Shown here piece by piece: positions 15,804 to 55,439 of a stretch of 64,000 nucleotides of DNA. The position numbers were made by a program, and so were the translations under genes. Source of the stretch: a virus; IMG/VR virus record IMGVR_UViG_3300030012_005163, positions 124,001 through 188,000 of that record. The stretch is one strand, 5' to 3'. Numbering within the stretch: the stretch's first letter is position 1; each line of letters starts with the position of its first letter. The notes below the pieces were generated by a model. That model was given only the letters and a program-made list of their open reading frames with translations, did not search any database and had not been told where the DNA came from.

Positions 15804-16610
15804 ATGGATTATAAAAGATACATTAATACCAAAGAAGATTCCATGTCTATATATCTTAAAGATGTGAGAAAAAGTGAAAGAATTACACCACAAGAAGAAG
15901 TAGAAATTGCTAAAAGAATTGCTAATGGAGATGAAAGTGCAATAGATGAATTAGTGATGGCTAATTTAAGATTTGTTATTGCTATTGCTAAAGACTATCA
16001 AAATCAAGGCATCTCTTTAGCGGATTTGATATCTGAAGGTAATTACGGATTAATTACCGCAGCTAAAAGGTTTGATTATACCAAAGGGTTTAGATTTATC
16101 TCTTATGCAGTTTGGTGGGTTAAACAATCTATTTTACAGTGTTTGAATGATAATTCTAGAATGGTTAGAATACCCGCTAATATGGTTAATAAGTTATCTA
16201 AAATAAATAAAGAAATAGAAAAATTTGAAAAGGAATTTGAAAGATCACCTACTTCTGAAGAGGTAGAATATCTTCATATACCCACATGTGGCTCTTTAAA
16301 TAAACACATTAATGAAGATGGGGACGAATTGTGTGCAGTCATCAAAGATGAAACTTTTGATAGTCCAGACTCAGGTGTAGATGAGAATGATACTTTATCG
16401 GGTAAACTCAATAGAGTGATGTCATATTTAAGTCATCGTGAAAGAGAAATAATTAACTGTTATTTTGGTATATACGGTAGCCCAATGACGTTAGAAGCTA
16501 TTGGTGAAGAATTAGAGTTAACAAAAGAAAGAATTAGACAAATCAAAGAATCTGCTATTCGTAAAATTAGAAATAATGTAGGAGATATTTTTGATTATAT
16601 GGATAAATAA
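15804..16610 (+). CDS. RNA polymerase sigma-70 factor, Bacteroidota RpoD-type
   Basis: Region 1.2 (SIYLKDVRKSERITPQEEVE), region 2 (NLRFVIAIAKDYQNQGISL and GFRFISYAVWWVKQSI), region 3 (RIPANMVNKLSKI) and region 4 (SHREREIINCYFGIYGSPMT and ELTKERIRQIKESAIRKI) are all intact. The 268-residue size and absence of region 1.1 match the short primary sigma factors of Bacteroidota. It probably directs host core polymerase to phage promoters; which of the two promoter classes it reads is unknown. An internal Met at codon 14 is an alternative start. A strong terminator follows. Confidence 0.92.
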   Translation: MDYKRYINTKEDSMSIYLKDVRKSERITPQEEVEIAKRIANGDESAIDELVMANLRFVIAIAKDYQNQGISLADLISEGNYGLITAAKRFDYTKGFRFISYAVWWVKQSILQCLNDNSRMVRIPANMVNKLSKINKEIEKFEKEFERSPTSEEVEYLHIPTCGSLNKHINEDGDELCAVIKDETFDSPDSGVDENDTLSGKLNRVMSYLSHREREIINCYFGIYGSPMTLEAIGEELELTKERIRQIKESAIRKIRNNVGDIFDYMDK

Positions 16611-28432: not shown

Positions 28433-29194
28433 ATGGAAAATTTGAATCAAATAACTTATAATCAATATTCTATCAAAATAGGTAAAAATTGTGATATTGC
28501 AGATGATGTCATTATCGGTAAAAACCCCAAAATAGGTAATAATGTTAGAATCTGTTCGGGAACTATCATAGGGGATAATGTTAAAATTTATGATGGTGCA
28601 ATAATTGGATCTGACCCACAAGATTTAGTCTATGAAAATGATATACTCACTCAAACTATCATAGGAGATAATGTAACGATAAGAGAATATGTAACAATAA
28701 ATAGAGGTAGTGAGAGAACTTTAAAAACAGTGGTTGGTGATAATTGTTATCTAATGTCGTATTCACACGTATCACATGACACTATCTTAGGTGATAATGT
28801 AATTTTAGCTAATTCAGTTCAAATAGGAGGTAATAGTGTTATTGAGGATTTTGTGTTTATGGGTGGTGGTGCCGTTCTACATCAAAAAGGAAGAATTGGT
28901 AAACATGCAATGATAGGTGGTGGGTCCGTTTTAAATAAAGATGTTTTACCATTCTCAACAATTTTGGGGGTTAACACTACATTAATAGGTGTTAATATAG
29001 TAGGAATTAAAAAGAACTATGATAAAGAAAAAATAAATAATATTCAAAACATATTTAATAAACTTAAAGAAGAAGGTTTATTTAGTAATAAAATTAAGTA
29101 TATAGAATCATTGAGTACTGAAGAATCACAAATTATATGTGATTTTGTTAAAAACAATAAAAGACCTTTATTATTATGGGAGAAAAAATATTAA
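28433..29194 (+). CDS. lpxA: LpxA-like UDP-GlcNAc O-acyltransferase homologue
   Basis: A left-handed beta-helix of hexapeptide repeats (IGKNPKIGNNVRI and similar) with LpxA-specific landmarks: IGSDPQDLVY, IREYVTINRG, the catalytic-region SHVSHDT (both His conserved), and FGVNIEGLK-type segment GVNIVGIKKN. The C-terminal helical extension of LpxA is also present (253 residues, close to 262 in E. coli). It should acylate UDP-GlcNAc or a similar sugar nucleotide. It overlaps a glycosyltransferase gene by 19 bases, suggesting joint modification of surface glycan or lipid A. Confidence 0.85.
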   Translation: MENLNQITYNQYSIKIGKNCDIADDVIIGKNPKIGNNVRICSGTIIGDNVKIYDGAIIGSDPQDLVYENDILTQTIIGDNVTIREYVTINRGSERTLKTVVGDNCYLMSYSHVSHDTILGDNVILANSVQIGGNSVIEDFVFMGGGAVLHQKGRIGKHAMIGGGSVLNKDVLPFSTILGVNTTLIGVNIVGIKKNYDKEKINNIQNIFNKLKEEGLFSNKIKYIESLSTEESQIICDFVKNNKRPLLLWEKKY

Positions 29195-31726: not shown

Positions 31727-32425
31727 ATGGAGGAAAAAAATAGAATATTAATAATTGGTGTAGATAAAGAAATTCATTCATCAATTACAGAGCAATTCGA
31801 CACCCAAAATTTTGAGTGTGTTGCAGTAACACACGGAAAAGAAGGGTTAAGTAAAATAAGAGAGTTTAGATTTGATGTCGTAATTTTAGATGAAAAATTA
31901 GTGGATATCGAAGGATTAGATTTAGTTCAAACCATAAGATTAGAGGATAGTAAAACACCTATTATATATATTAGTTTTCACGATCATGAAAACAAAATGT
32001 TACAATTACTACGAAATGGTGTAAATGATTATTTAGTAAAACCTTTATCTTATGAAGAAATAAAATATAAAACTATAAATTATATTAAATTATTTGGTAA
32101 AAATGTTAATAATATGACTACTGATAAAATAGATATTGGTGATCATAGCATTGATTTTAAATCATTTATTGTTAGTAATGAGGTAGGTGATGAATTTAGA
32201 TTAACCCAAAGACAAGTTAAATTACTAAAACTTTTAATTAGTAAGAATAATGAAGTTGTATCAAGAGAAGAAATTTTAGAAAAGATATGGGGTTATGATG
32301 TTTACATAAAAACTAGAACAATAGATAATGTTATACTGTCTTTAAGAAAAATATTTGAGAAGGACAAAACCCCTAATACTTTCTTTAAATCTGTAAGAGG
32401 GGTAGGTTATAAATTAACTTTTTAA
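31727..32425 (+). CDS. OmpR-family response regulator
   Basis: A receiver domain (residues 1-120) with phosphorylatable D55 in VVILDEKL, switch Ser83 in IIYIS and Lys105 in YLVKPL, followed by an OmpR/PhoB winged helix (RLTQRQVKLLKLL, TIDNVILSLRKIF, SVRGVGYKL). The N-terminal acidic pocket is IGVDKEI rather than the usual V-D-D-E, so phosphorylation may be altered. No kinase gene is nearby. It lies directly before the Ro60-like gene's promoter and could regulate phage or host genes. Confidence 0.88.
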   Translation: MEEKNRILIIGVDKEIHSSITEQFDTQNFECVAVTHGKEGLSKIREFRFDVVILDEKLVDIEGLDLVQTIRLEDSKTPIIYISFHDHENKMLQLLRNGVNDYLVKPLSYEEIKYKTINYIKLFGKNVNNMTTDKIDIGDHSIDFKSFIVSNEVGDEFRLTQRQVKLLKLLISKNNEVVSREEILEKIWGYDVYIKTRTIDNVILSLRKIFEKDKTPNTFFKSVRGVGYKLTF

Positions 32426-32443: not shown

Positions 32444-32475
32444 TTTGACTTTTAAATATATTCGCCCTATATTTG
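32444..32475 (+). promoter_or_regulatory. Class A promoter (TTTG-N20-TATATTTG) for Ro60-like operon
   Basis: TTTG at 32444-32447, a 20-base spacer and TATATTTG at 32468-32475, preceded by an A/T tract that could act as an UP element. The leader to the ATG at 32517 is about 40 bases. Confidence 0.82.
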
Positions 32476-32516
32476 TATCACACTTTTAAAAAACAATTTA
32501 AAAAACAACCAAAACT

Positions 32517-33968
32517 ATGGGTAATTCAATGACTAAATACAGAGAAATGGAGGAAGAAAAAGCGCAATTAACCGAAAACGGTATGTCTACGAATAACACT
32601 ACACTAAATAACTGTGTAGATTTATTTTTCTCTATTGGGGCTATGAGAGGAAAGAATAAAGTCACCTTAATTGAAAAATTTTCCAAAGCATATAGTGAAA
32701 ATCCATTGGTTGCTACTCGCATCCTTTTTTGGGTAAGGGATGTTAGAGAAGGTGCAGGTGAGAGACAAATTTTTAGAGATGTTATTTCTCACTTAGTAAA
32801 ACTTTCACCAGATGTTGTTAAAAAGAATGTTCATCTTATTTCTGAATACGGAAGATGGGATGATGTATTTACATTAATTGGTACTGACTTAGAAGGTATG
32901 GTTATAGACTTAATCGTAACTGCGTTAGGTAACGAAGACGGTTTATGTGCTAAGTGGATGCCTCGTAAAGGTGAAGTATTTAATAAAGTTAGAAGAGCTT
33001 TAAAAGTTTCCCCAAAAGAATTAAGAAAAAGATTAGTAGGTTTGACAGATGTAGTAGAAACTAAGATGTGTTCAAATCGATGGAAAGAAATTGACTACTC
33101 TAAAATACCTTCATTGGCATCGGCAAGATACCAAAAAGCGTTTTGGAGAAGAGATGAAAAGGGTTATAACCAATTTGTAGAAGACCTTAAAGAAGGTAAA
33201 ACTACAGTTAATAGTGGGGCATTATATCCTTACGATATTTTAAAGACTTTGTATACTGGTGTTGATGAAACAGTTTCTCAAAATCAATGGGATAATTTAC
33301 CTAACTTTATGGAAGGTAATGAGGATAGAGTTTTACCAATGGTTGATGTTTCAGGTTCAATGAGTTGTTCCGCAGGTAGTAATGATTCACTTACTTGTAT
33401 GGATGTAGCAATCTCATTAGGTATCTATATTTCAGAAAGGAATGAAGGAGCATTTAAAGATAGTTTTTTAACTTTTTCTTCAACACCGAGTTTACAGTAC
33501 TTAACTGGTGATTCACTAAAAGGTAAATTACAACAGTTAAGAAGTGCACATTGGGGAATGAGTACAAATTTAACGGCAACATTTGATTTATTGTTAAATC
33601 AGGCAGTAACTCATAATATTCCTTTAGGGGAAATGCCGACAAAAATATTAATATTATCAGATATGGAATTCGATGCAGCGACAGGAAATTGTTGGGAAGA
33701 ATCTGATAGTTGGAATCCTACCGCAATGGAGATGATTAAAACAAAATATGAAGAAGCTGGTTATGAAATGCCAACAATAGTATTTTGGAATCTTCATTCC
33801 AGAGGTAATGATAATTTTCCTGTTAAACAGGATGAGATGAACACCGCTTTAATCTCAGGATTTAGTCCATCAATATTAAAGTCAGTATTGAATGGGGAGA
33901 ATTTAACTCCTTACTCAGTAATGATGAAGACTGTTGATAGTACTAGGTATGAGAATATAACGGTATAG
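32517..33968 (+). CDS. Ro60-like TROVE/vWA-domain RNA-binding protein
   Basis: A 483-residue protein with N-terminal HEAT-like helical repeats (NPLVATRILFWVRDVREGAG, then RQIFRDVISHLV, ISEYGRWDDVFTLIG) and a C-terminal von Willebrand A domain with an intact MIDAS: DVSGSM near residue 277, the Thr in GMSTNLTATFD, and the Asp in ILSDMEFDAA. This is the architecture of Ro60/TROVE and the related DUF2828 proteins, which bind structured non-coding RNAs as a ring. The gene ends in TAG at 33966-33968 and is followed at once by about 450 bases of highly structured non-coding sequence with a terminator. That linkage mirrors bacterial Ro-Y RNA loci. Confidence 0.85.
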   Translation: MGNSMTKYREMEEEKAQLTENGMSTNNTTLNNCVDLFFSIGAMRGKNKVTLIEKFSKAYSENPLVATRILFWVRDVREGAGERQIFRDVISHLVKLSPDVVKKNVHLISEYGRWDDVFTLIGTDLEGMVIDLIVTALGNEDGLCAKWMPRKGEVFNKVRRALKVSPKELRKRLVGLTDVVETKMCSNRWKEIDYSKIPSLASARYQKAFWRRDEKGYNQFVEDLKEGKTTVNSGALYPYDILKTLYTGVDETVSQNQWDNLPNFMEGNEDRVLPMVDVSGSMSCSAGSNDSLTCMDVAISLGIYISERNEGAFKDSFLTFSSTPSLQYLTGDSLKGKLQQLRSAHWGMSTNLTATFDLLLNQAVTHNIPLGEMPTKILILSDMEFDAATGNCWEESDSWNPTAMEMIKTKYEEAGYEMPTIVFWNLHSRGNDNFPVKQDEMNTALISGFSPSILKSVLNGENLTPYSVMMKTVDSTRYENITV

Positions 33969-33980
33969 TTCTTTGACATA
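33968..33980 (+). promoter_or_regulatory. boxA-like antitermination element
   Basis: GTTCTTTGACATA, starting at the last base of the Ro60-like stop codon, resembles the boxA sequence found in leaders of bacterial rRNA operons (GTTCTTTGA-type). It lies directly before the first structured RNA, where protection from early termination would be useful. Similarity is by eye. Confidence 0.4.
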
Positions 33981-34116
33981 AAAATGGTATAGAGGAATGG
34001 TTTCGGCAAATTTAAAAAACTAAAACCAAGATCGAGAAGGTGGGAGTTTGACCCACAACCTTTCAGTAATGAGGGGCGGAAAAAAACAAACACATACAAT
34101 TCCGCTACCGTTTTTT
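33976..34116 (+). ncRNA. Structured RNA unit 1 downstream of Ro60-like gene
   Basis: Not protein coding on either strand. A 10-bp stem closes it (33980-33989 with 34106-34115, AAAAATGGTA/TACCGTTTTT, one G-U). Inside are three helices: TGGTTT/AAACCA (33998-34003/34023-34028), GTGGG/CCCAC (34040-34044/34052-34056) and GCGGAA/TTCCGC (34076-34081/34100-34105), giving a cloverleaf-like four-way junction of about 136 bases. The size and paired ends are like Y RNAs. It shares GAATGGTTTC-G-GCAAA with unit 2. The 3' strand ends in T6, so it may be processed or terminated there. Confidence 0.72.
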
Positions 34117-34120
34117 AAAT

Positions 34121-34428
34121 TGGTGTAAAACGAATGGTTTCTGCAAACTCTAACTTAAAACTAGAACGTAGAACAGAGGTTTTATTTTCCCTTTACCCAA
34201 ACTTATAAAGGGATCAACCATAGGTAAGTTTAAACGTGAGATAATCTCACACTTTAGGTTGTAAAACATACCTCTTGAATTTGTCTCAAGTTAAACAAAG
34301 ACACTCAGTGGGGCTGAGTTACCAAATCTACCGTAGGGACAGTCCTTACGTTAAATAAAAGCTGGACCCCCATTCCGACACCACATTATTGAGAGAGGAT
34401 ATTTTAATTAGTATCCTCTTTTTTTTTA
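34121..34428 (+). ncRNA. Structured RNA unit 2 downstream of Ro60-like gene
   Basis: Outer pairing TGGTGT...GAATGG (34121-34126, 34132-34137) with CCATTC...ACACCA (34370-34375, 34378-34383) closes about 263 bases. Inner helices: AGAGGT/ACCTCT (34175-34180/34270-34275), CCCTTTA/TAAAGGG (34189-34195/34206-34212), CAACC/GGTTG (34215-34219/34257-34261), GTGAGA/TCTCAC (34236-34241/34245-34250), CTCAG/CTGAG (34304-34308/34314-34318) and GTAGGG/CCTTAC (34333-34338/34344-34349). It carries GAATGGTTTC-T-GCAAA, matching unit 1. It ends in a strong terminator. I do not recognise a known RNA family. Confidence 0.75.
34394..34428 (+). terminator. Rho-independent terminator of Ro60-like/ncRNA operon
   Basis: AGAGGATA (34394-34401) and TATCCTCT (34412-34419) form a perfect 8-bp stem followed by nine T. 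Confidence 0.95.
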
Positions 34429-34462: not shown

Positions 34463-34759
34463 ATGGGAAAATTTGATGAATTAATAAACTCAGAAAAACC
34501 TACATTAGTAGATTTTTATGCCACTTGGTGTGGACCGTGTAAGATGATGTCTCCTTTATTAGAAGAAGTTGCAACAGAATTAGGTGAGTCTACTAAAATA
34601 ATAAAAGTAGATATAGATAAGAATCGTGATGCTGCGGCACAATATGGTATTAGGAGTGTACCTACTCTATTATTATTTAAAGAAGGTGAGGTTGTTTGGA
34701 GACAAAGTGGTTTACCACCTAAAAATTTAATAACAGAATCTATAAAAAAGTTTATCTAA
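34463..34759 (+). CDS. Thioredoxin
   Basis: A 98-residue single thioredoxin fold with active site WCGPCKMM, cis-proline segment RSVPTLLLF and the buried acidic strand VDFYATW. Length and motifs are canonical. It may reduce phage ribonucleotide reductase (none in window) or assist folding. It begins right after the ncRNA terminator; a TATATTTA box at 34441-34448 lacks a -33 TTTG. Confidence 0.93.
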   Translation: MGKFDELINSEKPTLVDFYATWCGPCKMMSPLLEEVATELGESTKIIKVDIDKNRDAAAQYGIRSVPTLLLFKEGEVVWRQSGLPPKNLITESIKKFI

Positions 34760-35987: not shown

Positions 35988-37016
35988 ATGACAAAAGATT
36001 ATTATAAAGTTTTAGGGGTGGATAAAAGTGTTGATGATGCTAGTCTTAAAAAAGCTTACAGAAAATTATCAAAAAAGTATCATCCCGATGTAAATAAAGA
36101 TAATCCTAATTCTGAAGAAAAATTTAAAGAAGTAGCTGAAGCATACAATGTTTTATCCGACCCCACTAAAAGAAAAAATTACGATACTTTTGGAACACCA
36201 GATGGTAGAGGGGGTAATCCTTTTGGTAATGGTGGGTTTGATATGGGTGACATATTTAGTTCTTTTTTCGGTGAAGAAGGTAACCCTTTTGGGGGAAGGT
36301 CTAAAAGACAAAGGAGATTTAAAGGTACTGATATAAGAGTAAATATAAAATTAAGTTTAGAAGATATTTTTAATGGGGTACACAAAAAAATAAAATATAA
36401 AAGAAATGATTCTTGTGATTTATGTAATTCTACTGGTGGGGAAACATCCACTTGTAGTATGTGTAGAGGTGGTGGACAAATTAATAGAGTTACAAATACT
36501 CCTTTTGGAAAAATACAAAATACCACTATGTGTCCCACATGTAATGGTGAAGGAAGTATCATTATTAAACCATGTAAAAAATGTAATGGATTAGGGGTGA
36601 ATCTCGTAGAAGAAACCACAGAATTTCAAATACCAAAAGGTATTATGGATGGTGAATATTTAGCAATGAGAGGAAAAGGTAATTCGATTAAAAAAGGTAC
36701 TGCGGGAGATTTAATAATAAATGTTATAGAAATACCTCACGATAAATTTAAAAGAAATAATAATGATATACACCAAAGAATTAAATTGTCATATAAAGAT
36801 TTAGTGTTAGGTTGTTCCACAGAATTAGATACACTTAGTGGTAAAATAAGAATTAAAGTAAAAGAAGGAACAGAAGTGGGACATATACTTAGAGTACCTA
36901 AAAAAGGATTTATAAGGGATAATATGGTTGGTGATATGATGGTAGAAGTTTGGATTGATATTCCTAAAGAATTAAATGAAGAAAATAAAAAAGTAATTGA
37001 GTCTTTAAATATTTGA
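35988..37016 (+). CDS. dnaJ: DnaJ co-chaperone
   Basis: A complete type I DnaJ: J domain with KKYHPDVNK (HPD motif), a Gly/Phe-rich linker (residues about 65-95), four CxxCxGxG zinc motifs (CDLCNSTG, CSMCRGGG, CPTCNGEG, CKKCNGLG) and two C-terminal substrate-binding domains. At 342 residues it is slightly shorter than E. coli DnaJ. It should recruit host DnaK for folding or remodelling, as other phages do for replication or capsid assembly. Confidence 0.94.
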   Translation: MTKDYYKVLGVDKSVDDASLKKAYRKLSKKYHPDVNKDNPNSEEKFKEVAEAYNVLSDPTKRKNYDTFGTPDGRGGNPFGNGGFDMGDIFSSFFGEEGNPFGGRSKRQRRFKGTDIRVNIKLSLEDIFNGVHKKIKYKRNDSCDLCNSTGGETSTCSMCRGGGQINRVTNTPFGKIQNTTMCPTCNGEGSIIIKPCKKCNGLGVNLVEETTEFQIPKGIMDGEYLAMRGKGNSIKKGTAGDLIINVIEIPHDKFKRNNNDIHQRIKLSYKDLVLGCSTELDTLSGKIRIKVKEGTEVGHILRVPKKGFIRDNMVGDMMVEVWIDIPKELNEENKKVIESLNI

Positions 37017-39222: not shown

Positions 39223-39933
39223 ATGATGAATTTAGATTTTTACAGTGAATTTAAGAATTATGCTATGAAGCATTTAGGTATTAGTGGGATACAGTTTCAC
39301 TATTGGGAAAAACTACAAGATAGTGTCTATAATAATAGTATGGTAACTTCTAGTCTCACACCTTATATATTAGAAGAAAGAGAAATGAGAGTAACTCAGA
39401 TGGACATTTTCTCACGATTAATGATGGATAGGATATTGTGGGTTGCGGGTCCGGTGAATGACCAAATGAGTACTGTTGTACAAGCACAATTAATGTTTTT
39501 AGATAACGTTGAATGTCGAGATATAATTGTACACGTAGATTCGCCAGGTGGATCGGTTAAGTCAGGATTAAGTATGGTAGATGTTATGAATTATGTTAAA
39601 TCCGATATTGTGACTATTAATACTGGTATGGCAGCATCAATGGGTTCTATATTGCTGGGTAATGGTACTAAAGGTAAAAGGTTTTCTTTACCGAATTCAA
39701 AAGTAATGTTACATCAAGTATCAGCAGGCGCACAAGGACATGTAGAAGATATGAAAATCAGTATCGCTGAAGCAGAAAAATATAATGACAAATTATTTCA
39801 AATGTTAGCAGATTTTTGTGGTAAAAGTAAAAAAAGAGTCCTTGCAGATTGTAATAGAGACAATTGGTTGGATTCTAATGAAGCTTTAGAATATGGAATT
39901 ATTGACGAAATAATTGAAAAACTCGAAAAATAA
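39223..39933 (+). CDS. clpP: ClpP-family serine protease, Bacteroidota type
   Basis: Catalytic triad present: Ser in GMAASMGSILL, His in VMLHQVSAG and Asp near NRDNWLDSNEAL. The N-terminal 50 residues with YILEERE then RVTQMDIFSRLMMDRIL match the extended N-terminus of Bacteroidota ClpP, so it was probably acquired from a host. It could form mixed 14-mers with host ClpP, degrade tmRNA-tagged proteins (a tmRNA lies 6 kb away) or act as a prohead protease. Conservation is high apart from the strand VHVDSPGGSVKSG. Confidence 0.9.
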   Translation: MMNLDFYSEFKNYAMKHLGISGIQFHYWEKLQDSVYNNSMVTSSLTPYILEEREMRVTQMDIFSRLMMDRILWVAGPVNDQMSTVVQAQLMFLDNVECRDIIVHVDSPGGSVKSGLSMVDVMNYVKSDIVTINTGMAASMGSILLGNGTKGKRFSLPNSKVMLHQVSAGAQGHVEDMKISIAEAEKYNDKLFQMLADFCGKSKKRVLADCNRDNWLDSNEALEYGIIDEIIEKLEK

Positions 39934-45862: not shown

Positions 45863-46042
45863 ATGGGAAGAGTTAAACAACTTTATGAAGAAATTTACGT
45901 TGAGGAAATGGAAAAACATTACGAACAACTATATATGGAAGAAAAACTATATAGTGAAAGATATGGGGATGACACGGAATTGATTGACGTAGAGAAGTGT
46001 GAAGATTCAGGTATGGGTGATGACCAACATCAAAAACCTTAG
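45863..46042 (+). CDS. 59-aa ORF running into the tmRNA gene
   Basis: MGRVKQLYEEIYVEEMEKHY opens 5 bases after a class A promoter and continues in frame through the tmRNA 5' half, ending at TAG 46040-46042 just before the tmRNA resume codon. The first 34 residues (before 45965) look like a real acidic helix; the later part is dictated by tmRNA structure. It may be a genuine small gene truncated by the tmRNA, or a leader ORF. Processing of the tmRNA would destroy this mRNA. Confidence 0.5.
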   Translation: MGRVKQLYEEIYVEEMEKHYEQLYMEEKLYSERYGDDTELIDVEKCEDSGMGDDQHQKP

Positions 46043-46305
46043 CTGGAAACGCTGAGTATGCTATGGCAGCCTAATTAGATTAGATGCTAAGCACATCATG
46101 TAACTGAGTATACTTGTAGGTTATTAAGATGTTAAAGGAAGTAGATGGTGATGTTTGGTAATGATAGTGATTTGCCAGTGACGACCTTACAGTTAACGAA
46201 AATCTATCAATTTATGGAAGTTTAGAAAAACTTATCCTAAACTTGTAAAAAGATCTCATATGGATGACGGGCAAGACGGGGGTTCGAATCCCCCCATCTC
46301 CACCA
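45965..46305 (+). ncRNA. ssrA: tmRNA
   Basis: The tRNA-like domain is complete: 5' GGGGATG pairs with 3' CATCTCC including G3-U70 for AlaRS, the T-arm is GGGGG/CCCCC with TTCGAAT loop, discriminator A and an encoded CCA (46303-46305). The 5' part GGGGATGACACGGAATTGAT is the usual tmRNA start. The tag frame begins at GGA 46045 after TAGCT and reads GNAEYAMAA then TAA at 46072-46074. The internal region can form the expected pseudoknots. It should rescue stalled ribosomes with a phage-specified degradation tag. Confidence 0.93.
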
Positions 46306-54742: not shown

Positions 54743-55255
54743 TTATTCTTCTGCAGGTAATCTACCTAATTGTTTATTTAATTCAAATAAACCACCTCCA
54801 TTATCACCGATAATTTTTAAATCATCTATAATTTCTTTAAATTTATTTTCTTCCTCCATTTGTTCAGTAACAAACCATTGCATAAAAGTTTCAGTTTGAA
54901 TATCATTTACTTCTTTACACTTACTAATAATAGTGTTTATAGATTTAGTTACTTTACGCTCATTATAAAGAGAATTTTGAAAATGTGTTAGTATATTAAA
55001 TTCTTCTTCTAAGTCTTCCATAAAATTATAATTAGGAATTATGGGTTGTGCATCTTGTTCTAATAAATAATTCATTAATTTTAACATATGTTCTCGTTCC
55101 TCATTAGATTGTTCTAAAAAGAATTTAGATATTCCGTTATACCCATTTTCATTAAATTGTGTAGATAAAAACAAATAATAAAAAGAAGCATTATTTTCTA
55201 ACCATATTTGTTCGTTAATTGAATTAACTACCTCTTTAGATAGTAAACTATTCAT
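54743..55255 (-). CDS. Ferritin (non-haem, FtnA-type)
   Basis: From the internal Met 55255 it begins MNSLLSKEVVNSINEQIWLE. Ferroxidase ligands are in place: E20, E53 and H56 (NEEREHMLKL), and the Q-x-x-EE segment VTEQMEEENKF. The 170-residue length and C-terminal helix (GLFELNKQLG) are normal for bacterial ferritin. It should form a 24-mer that stores iron or limits oxidative damage. It overlaps the bS21 gene by 8 bases, so both are made from one mRNA. Confidence 0.92.
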   Translation of the reverse strand: MNSLLSKEVVNSINEQIWLENNASFYYLFLSTQFNENGYNGISKFFLEQSNEEREHMLKLMNYLLEQDAQPIIPNYNFMEDLEEEFNILTHFQNSLYNERKVTKSINTIISKCKEVNDIQTETFMQWFVTEQMEEENKFKEIIDDLKIIGDNGGGLFELNKQLGRLPAEE

Positions 55256-55439
55256 CTTCTTCTGTTCTTTTCTTTTGTACATACTTTGCCTTACTAATTT
55301 CTTCTCTTCTTATAACAGATGGTTTAGTAAACTCTTCTCTCTTTCTACATTCTCTAGCAACCTTAGTTTTAATGAATTTACTCTTCATTTCTTTAAGTGC
55401 TCTTTCAATATTCCCTTTTTTTACGTTTACTTTTAACAT
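55248..55439 (-). CDS. rpsU: Ribosomal protein bS21
   Basis: The 63-residue protein matches bS21 throughout: MLKVNVKKGNIERALKEMKS, KVARECRKREEFTKPSVIRR and KYVQKKRTEE. In Bacteroidota, bS21 together with bS6 and bS18 covers the 3' tail of 16S rRNA and so masks the anti-Shine-Dalgarno. A phage-made bS21 could replace the host copy on the ribosome and alter start selection, which fits the SD-less, often near-leaderless phage genes. It is the first gene of a two-gene operon with ferritin. Confidence 0.92.
   Translation of the reverse strand: MLKVNVKKGNIERALKEMKSKFIKTKVARECRKREEFTKPSVIRREEISKAKYVQKKRTEEDE

Follow-up and report, generated by a model that had tools for sequence, protein, structure and literature searches.

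A 64,000-nucleotide stretch of viral DNA (the window), part of a 198,361-base virus record, carries a gene for a Ro60-like protein followed closely by structured RNA. We read this locus, with a probability of roughly 0.7, as a viral Ro RNP with a linked Y-like RNA that is made as one transcript, comprises two units and bears new inserts. The initial annotation of this DNA had likewise proposed a viral Ro RNP from the protein and its linked RNA, and this proposal gained support from the predicted Ro60 fold, from an RNA lying beside Ro in 27 of 28 copies, and from relatives that carry permuted tRNAs. Phage Ro proteins were already known, and what is new here is the kind of Y-like RNA and its general signature. 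In the open-access literature searched, no description of this RNA or of the C(A/G/U)GCAA signature was found, which agrees with the earlier remark that no description of the RNA pair was known, and DUF2828 was absent from the papers matched there.

Ro60-like protein

32517-33968, plus strand: Ro60-like protein gene, 483 amino acids, DUF2828 and DUF7788 (open reading frame, Pfam, predicted fold)

Pfam matches of the 483-residue protein were DUF2828 and DUF7788, both of which were also present in 25 of 25 sequences of a protein set (A1). Pfam TROVE gave no match, and vWA_Ro60 stayed below cut-off for this protein (E 0.059, 13.7 bits against 27.7 needed) and was weak across set A1 (3 of 25 sequences at E up to 1). 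A single-sequence search of the PDB returned unrelated proteins at E 0.017-0.9, which were rejected, and a profile search returned TROVE/Ro60 only at E 0.03-0.16, identity being decided by the fold search.

An AlphaFold2 model was produced from 53 sequences (pLDDT 86.9, pTM 0.87), and all six Foldseek matches of this model at E up to 0.001 were Ro60/TROVE proteins. Using VIA-align, the model was superposed on 1yvp with Z 24.6 over 386 residues and on D. radiodurans Rsr with Z 13.7; rows 1-10 of the ranking were all Ro60/TROVE, and row 11 (Z 11.0) covered model residues 241-462, the vWA part. The predicted model comprises a helical-repeat ring and a vWA domain, as in Ro60, and the DUF2828 protein is thus Ro60-like by predicted fold, in a sequence clade of its own. 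It had earlier been called a TROVE/vWA gene, a name that holds for the predicted fold, given the match to 1yvp, and not for the sequence family, which is DUF2828 and not TROVE. The residues that we take to form the MIDAS, as judged from the motif (D277, S279, S281, T350, D382), were invariant in the 53 sequences of set A2, consistent with the MIDAS being intact as first described. The Ro-like gene is present in 682 GenBank phage records.

Transcription signals

32444-32475, plus strand: Bacteroidota-type promoter-like site, TTTG-N20-TATATTTG (pattern match, position being the evidence for it)
33968-33978, plus strand: boxA-like element, GTTCTTTGACA (motif, putative function)
34391-34428, plus strand: intrinsic terminator, 13 pairs at 34391-34422 followed by a T run (sequence and pairing)

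The promoter-like site ends 41 nt 5' of the Ro ATG and fits the form that we take to be that of Bacteroidota promoters. The initial annotation had given the gene a strong class A promoter of its own. The promoter-like site is retained by position, and the word strong is not supported, since the pattern matched 7 times in the window against 3.6 expected and 7 of 100 shuffles also reached 7.

The boxA-like element overlaps the final base of the Ro stop codon and resembles what we take to be an rRNA-type boxA, a likeness that would fit a long untranslated transcript. Across the 14 loci of an RNA alignment (A3, below), TTCTTTGA begins at most 44 nt from the Ro stop in 10, two (L026, L125) have TTCTTTAA in its place, and two (L088, L092) have neither; T(T/A)CTTTGA precedes the units in 13 of 31 loci inspected. 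For comparison, 14 Flavobacteriales 16S leaders were searched, of which 4 had GTTCTTTGA or GTTCTTTAA 66-105 nt before the gene, 5 (four of them from one genome) had looser boxA variants farther away, and 5, including two with only ~35 nt to search, had no boxA form.

The perfect 8-bp terminator described earlier is part of the 13-pair terminator. There is one terminator in all, and no clear promoter was found between unit 1 and unit 2. It is therefore simpler to assume a single RNA that contains both units; of the two adjacent RNAs claimed before, the two units were kept and their separateness was not.

RNA architecture

33985-34110, plus strand: RNA unit 1, outer stem 33985-33989/34106-34110 (fold, alignment, covariation)
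33994-33998/34099-34103, plus strand: unit 1 helix GGAAU/AUUCC, with CGGCAA at 34004-34009
34122-34382, plus strand: RNA unit 2, outer stem GGUGU 34122-34126/ACACC 34378-34382 (fold, alignment, covariation)
34132-34137/34370-34375, plus strand: unit 2 helix GAAUGG/CCAUUC, with CUGCAA at 34141-34146
34209-34277, plus strand: core of the unit 2 insert (69 nt; model R1), the best-conserved stretch

The structured RNA begins 16 nt after the Ro stop. Positions 33980-34428 folded at -120.1 kcal/mol (z -4.4), with 0 of 100 shuffles as good, which confirms the strongly helical non-coding stretch noted after the stop codon. Both units are built alike: an outer stem and a small internal loop are followed by a helix and, a few bases on, by C(G/U)GCAA and the insert. 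At the sequence level, GAATGGTTTC[G/T]GCAAA occurs twice, 137 nt apart, and ATTCCG closes each unit. In both, the 5' and 3' parts are paired, with covariation, in a stem that closes a putative effector module.

In the minimum-energy fold of the window sequence alone, GGAAUGG of unit 1 pairs with the 3' end of unit 2. This fold was not preferred, because unit 1 in relatives is GGAAUAAUUGCAGCAA and pairs with its own AUUCC, which favours the two-domain fold. Unit 1 of the window and of L002 (33979-34110 in the window) is without a ~29-nt stretch found in the other 12 RNAs of A3, and its 5' strand in these two is closer to unit 2 than to the relatives' unit 1, as though unit 2 had converted it.

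An Rfam scan of the RNA gave nothing over the gathering score, and no YrlA (RF02553), ROOL or GOLLD match. Permissive limits returned sub-threshold candidates for the window RNA (best E 2.4) and, for the homologue L027, a best E of 0.079 on the other strand and below cut-off; these were discarded. Neither window insert contains a recognised tRNA part (T arm, acceptor or D arm). A unit 1 hairpin, GUGGG-AGUUUGA-CCCAC, was considered as a T arm and rejected, as its loop is without the T-loop consensus and other members differ there.

Conservation, covariation and linkage to the Ro gene

Relatives were collected by an IMG/VR protein scan, which gave 80 Ro loci, and by an independent IMG/VR scan with the 16-mer GAATGGTTTCKGCAAA, which gave 74 stretches; 20 of these had the RNA core and were used (all with Ro), and 54 were dropped as chance. 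BLASTN with the unit 2 core placed the RNA in 31 loci, several of them one contig fetched twice, with a Ro match in 31 of 31, and 20 of these loci belong to the 74 found by the DNA 16-mer alone. A second DNA pattern, AGGTYGTAAAACATACC, gave 36 stretches in IMG/VR, of which 28 were the RNA, many already in the earlier sets, and 8 lacked the remainder of the RNA and were dropped. The Ro gene lies 291-400 nt upstream in 27 of the 28, and the 28th copy (L299) is a fragment of the L029 contig, on which Ro is present. By appearance, the 8 dropped stretches look coding.

Conservation and covariation of the RNA in relatives had been named by the initial annotation as a check, and both were found in alignment A3 (14 RNAs; RNAalifold structure of 76 pairs). 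Two-sided changes occurred in 30 of 76 pairs against 14.4 (sd 2.2) in 500 shuffles, none of which reached 30, the test leaning toward structure since the structure was derived from A3 itself. The paired cells (96.8% against 88.9 in shuffles) and the covariation score (0.271 against 0.142) were likewise reached by 0 of 500 shuffles, the number of further pair types (60 against 54.7) was reached by 10 of 500, and sliding the partners left only 5-11 two-sided pairs.

Searched with a covariance model of this core, the virus record gave one copy and 296 Bacteroidota genomes gave one match, which lies in bin G206 on the contig of L179, a locus with Ro; among 20 more distant loci searched, the core was clear only in L311. 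As far as tested, the 69-nt core belongs to one phage lineage.

Helix-CRGCAA units beside other Ro genes

Beside the Ro genes of other phages, the same plan was found with different helix letters, namely a helix, 0-5 nt, CRGCAA, an insert, and the pairing strand, which is followed by G in 127 of 219 near units; insert length ranges from about 30 to 300 nt. Campylobacter phage PC14 has two helix-CRGCAA units upstream of Ro, Felixounavirus UAB_Phi87 has four in 1.1 kb downstream of Ro, Listeria phage LMTA-57 has three helix-ACAGCAA units just upstream of its Ro-like gene, mycobacteriophage Krypton555 has three units downstream of Ro, and Cronobacter phage S13 has a unit at +759.

Counts were made on nonredundant sets (79, 72 and 150 loci), from which loci sharing at least half of their Ro-DNA 12-mers with a kept locus had been removed. 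At 79 phage loci, from the same phages in which the signature was drawn, sense-strand CRGCAA occurred 71 times in the 500 nt upstream and 62 times in the 500 nt downstream of Ro, against 9-28 in the other complete bins and, antisense, 9 upstream and 19 downstream. At 72 loci on bacterial-genome contigs, a set partly dependent on the phage set (L178 is the same contig as L004), there were 116 sense-strand sites upstream against 15-50 in other bins and 19 antisense, and no enrichment in the 500 nt downstream (33 sense, 32 antisense).

Flanking helices (score of at least 8) were present at 86 of 141 near sites in phages; the control counts were 72 of 600 at random near positions and 52 of 423 with mismatched arms, for which 5' arms had been combined with another locus. 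In genome contigs, they were present at 78 of 166 near sites, and in the two controls at 122 of 600 and 77 of 498, respectively; since these controls also score, part of the single units will be chance. With a helix score of at least 7.5 within 800 nt of Ro taken as a unit, 105 of 150 nonredundant loci had one, some by chance, and 45 had none; within 600 nt, 10 of 20 GenBank phages, including KVP40, phiAS5, XbC2, GAP32 and phiN3, had no unit with that score.

The placement of the units bears on an alternative that we hold to be unlikely, in which the RNA acts in cis as an untranslated part of the Ro message, Ro regulates its own level by binding there, and no free Y RNA is made. Such a region would suit an RNA that starts 16 nt after the Ro stop and shares a terminator with it, and also the units just upstream of Ro in genome contigs and many phages. 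However, phages differ in whether their units lie upstream or downstream of Ro, arrays run up to four or more units, and some units enclose a permuted tRNA, which a simple operator would not need. We prefer a Y-like RNA linked to Ro.

In S13, the helix-CTACAGCAA unit (L158:5987-6260) lies closely 3' of a feature annotated tRNA-OTHER, and odd tRNA annotations near phage Ro genes merit re-inspection.

Permuted tRNA inserts

A circularly permuted tRNA was found in 18 of 219 near CRGCAA units, two of them (L226, L240) doubtful by eye, against 1 of 90 far units. When near and far sites were compared, those at distances of 600-1000 nt were excluded. The middle unit of Krypton555 has a T arm, an acceptor part and a D arm, in that order, which is the order of the YrlA model. 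The YrlA model matched this unit at E 2.1e-8 (positions 24-84 of 114, 38.3 bits, cut-off 69); among 14 known genomes taken as controls, 7 matched when E values up to 0.001 were allowed and one when the limit was 1e-8. The unit signature joins the window RNA to units with YrlA-type permuted tRNA in other phages and bacterial-genome contigs.

Twelve Pseudomonadota YrlA loci were inspected, two of them (L267, L268) weak matches, and CRGCAA stood at the 5' end in one (L264, with CGGCAA as a variant of the YrlA stem) and elsewhere in L263. In a review, YrlA is described as a stem tethering Rsr and a tRNA-like domain binding PNPase (PMC8394870). By analogy, the CRGCAA stem may be the DUF2828-clade counterpart of the Ro-binding stem of YrlA.

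The permuted tRNAs in these 18 units, and the tRNA clusters in which many GenBank Ro loci sit, would also agree with the units being tRNA or nuclease decoys that occupy host anticodon nucleases or other defences that cut RNA, with Ro merely stabilising them; one paper raises a decoy role of YrlA as a possibility (PMC7790460). We consider this improbable, as most units, both window units included, are without a tRNA part and the unit 2 insert forms a separate fold that is strongly conserved.

Proposed mechanism

For a Ro RNP with a linked Y-like RNA, the following course is proposed. The DUF2828 protein would fold as a Ro60 ring, as modelled, and a single promoter would probably serve both the Ro gene and the RNA. 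Early termination in the untranslated part may be prevented by the boxA-like element at the Ro stop, and the transcript would end at the intrinsic terminator. Each RNA unit would be a Y-like module, in which Ro probably binds the closing helix and the C(A/G/U)GCAA strand, since both stay constant while the insert varies freely between phages. The insert would be the effector part; it is a permuted tRNA in some relatives, as in bacterial YrlA, and a large fold of its own in the window. If the case of D. radiodurans Rsr is a guide, the RNA would gate the Ro ring and link it to a partner, for instance a nuclease or ligase, and the gated ring might select damaged or misfolded RNA during infection. 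With two units, one RNA could carry a pair of Ro rings.

Extended beyond the window, we put at about even odds a reading in which helix-C(A/G/U)GCAA RNAs are a general, as yet unnamed class of Y RNA belonging to the DUF2828 Ro proteins of tailed phages and bacterial-genome contigs, with a constant Ro-binding stem, exchangeable inserts (permuted tRNA or new folds), and tandem arrays by which one transcript holds several Ro rings; in the lineage of the window, such arrays would have grown to a single ~400-nt RNA with two Ro sites. A short signature of the presumed Ro-binding part would allow phage Y RNAs to be annotated beside Ro-like genes, and it makes the role of the exchangeable inserts directly testable.

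Comparison with known systems

The bacterial Ro60 orthologue Rsr works with the Y RNA YrlA in D. radiodurans and Salmonella, and with PNPase in RYPER. Like Rsr/YrlA, the window locus has a predicted Ro60 fold and an adjoining gene and structured RNA, and related loci have, as in YrlA, a closing stem around a permuted tRNA. Unlike Rsr/YrlA, the window protein belongs to the DUF2828 clade, the stem signature is C(A/G/U)GCAA and not the YrlA stem, the window inserts are not tRNA-like, and no RtcB or Pfam RNA ligase was found in the virus record, which may be a fragment. An RNA ligase is present near the Ro-like gene in GAP32, XbC2 and pEa_SNUABM_50, and a tRNA-splicing ligase lies 1.3 kb downstream of it in LMTA-57.

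Among phages, Krypton555 shares with the window a DUF2828-type protein and tandem units (helix-ACAGCAA, one with a permuted tRNA, in Krypton555), and differs in having three short units, where the window has a terminator and two long units with other inserts. Citing papers credit Chen et al. 2014 with the Ro-like proteins and Y RNAs of mycobacteriophages; a mycobacteriophage survey describes a Ro60-like fold (PMC12363180), and a review describes ROT/TROVE proteins in a small subset of jumbo phages (PMC7824862). The Thermus phage phiLo Ro60 (PDB 9l5y) has a phage Ro60/TROVE fold like that of the window protein (Z 16.5), but is described as a TROVE protein and has 15% identity to it over the aligned part.

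Listeria phage CKA15 has an Rsr-like protein (CKA15_055) of the DUF2828 family, which was detected in purified particles, and the authors of that work proposed a super-abundant ncRNA as a possible Y RNA (PMC12282133). Three helix-ACAGCAA units are present in the near-identical LMTA-57, but the most abundant RNA region of CKA15 (CKA15_059-061) coincides with a ROOL match and not with such units. We did not adopt this ncRNA as a Y RNA, as CKA15_059-061 lie within a match to the full length of ROOL, which at 90.1 bits (E 7.8e-18) is somewhat under the cut-off of 99.1.

It is very improbable that the window RNA is an unrelated phage RNA of the large ornate type, like ROOL or GOLLD, that lies beside Ro by chance. 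Its size and rich fold and the ROOL homologue near Ro in Listeria phages might speak for this, but the RNA has no ROOL, GOLLD or other Rfam match, the core copies found are linked to Ro, and the ROOL match and helix-ACAGCAA units of Listeria phages are separate stretches.

Neighbouring features

The ROOL region lies upstream of the Ro-like gene at L294:2444-2995 in CKA15 (OR088597.1) and at L155:4605-4945 in LMTA-57, and a drum RNA (RF02958, over cut-off) was found at L155:1956-2054 in the tRNA cluster upstream of the LMTA-57 Ro-like gene. In the window, a complete OmpR-type response regulator gene (receiver and Trans_reg_C, 31727-32425), unusual for a phage, lies directly upstream of the Ro-like gene. 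Host-like genes of the window encode a sigma-70 factor (15804-16610), an LpxA-like acyltransferase (28433-29194), a thioredoxin (34463-34759), DnaJ (35988-37016), ClpP (39223-39933) and a ferritin-like protein (54743-55282), and a phage tmRNA with the tag GNAEYAMAA is present at 45965-46305.
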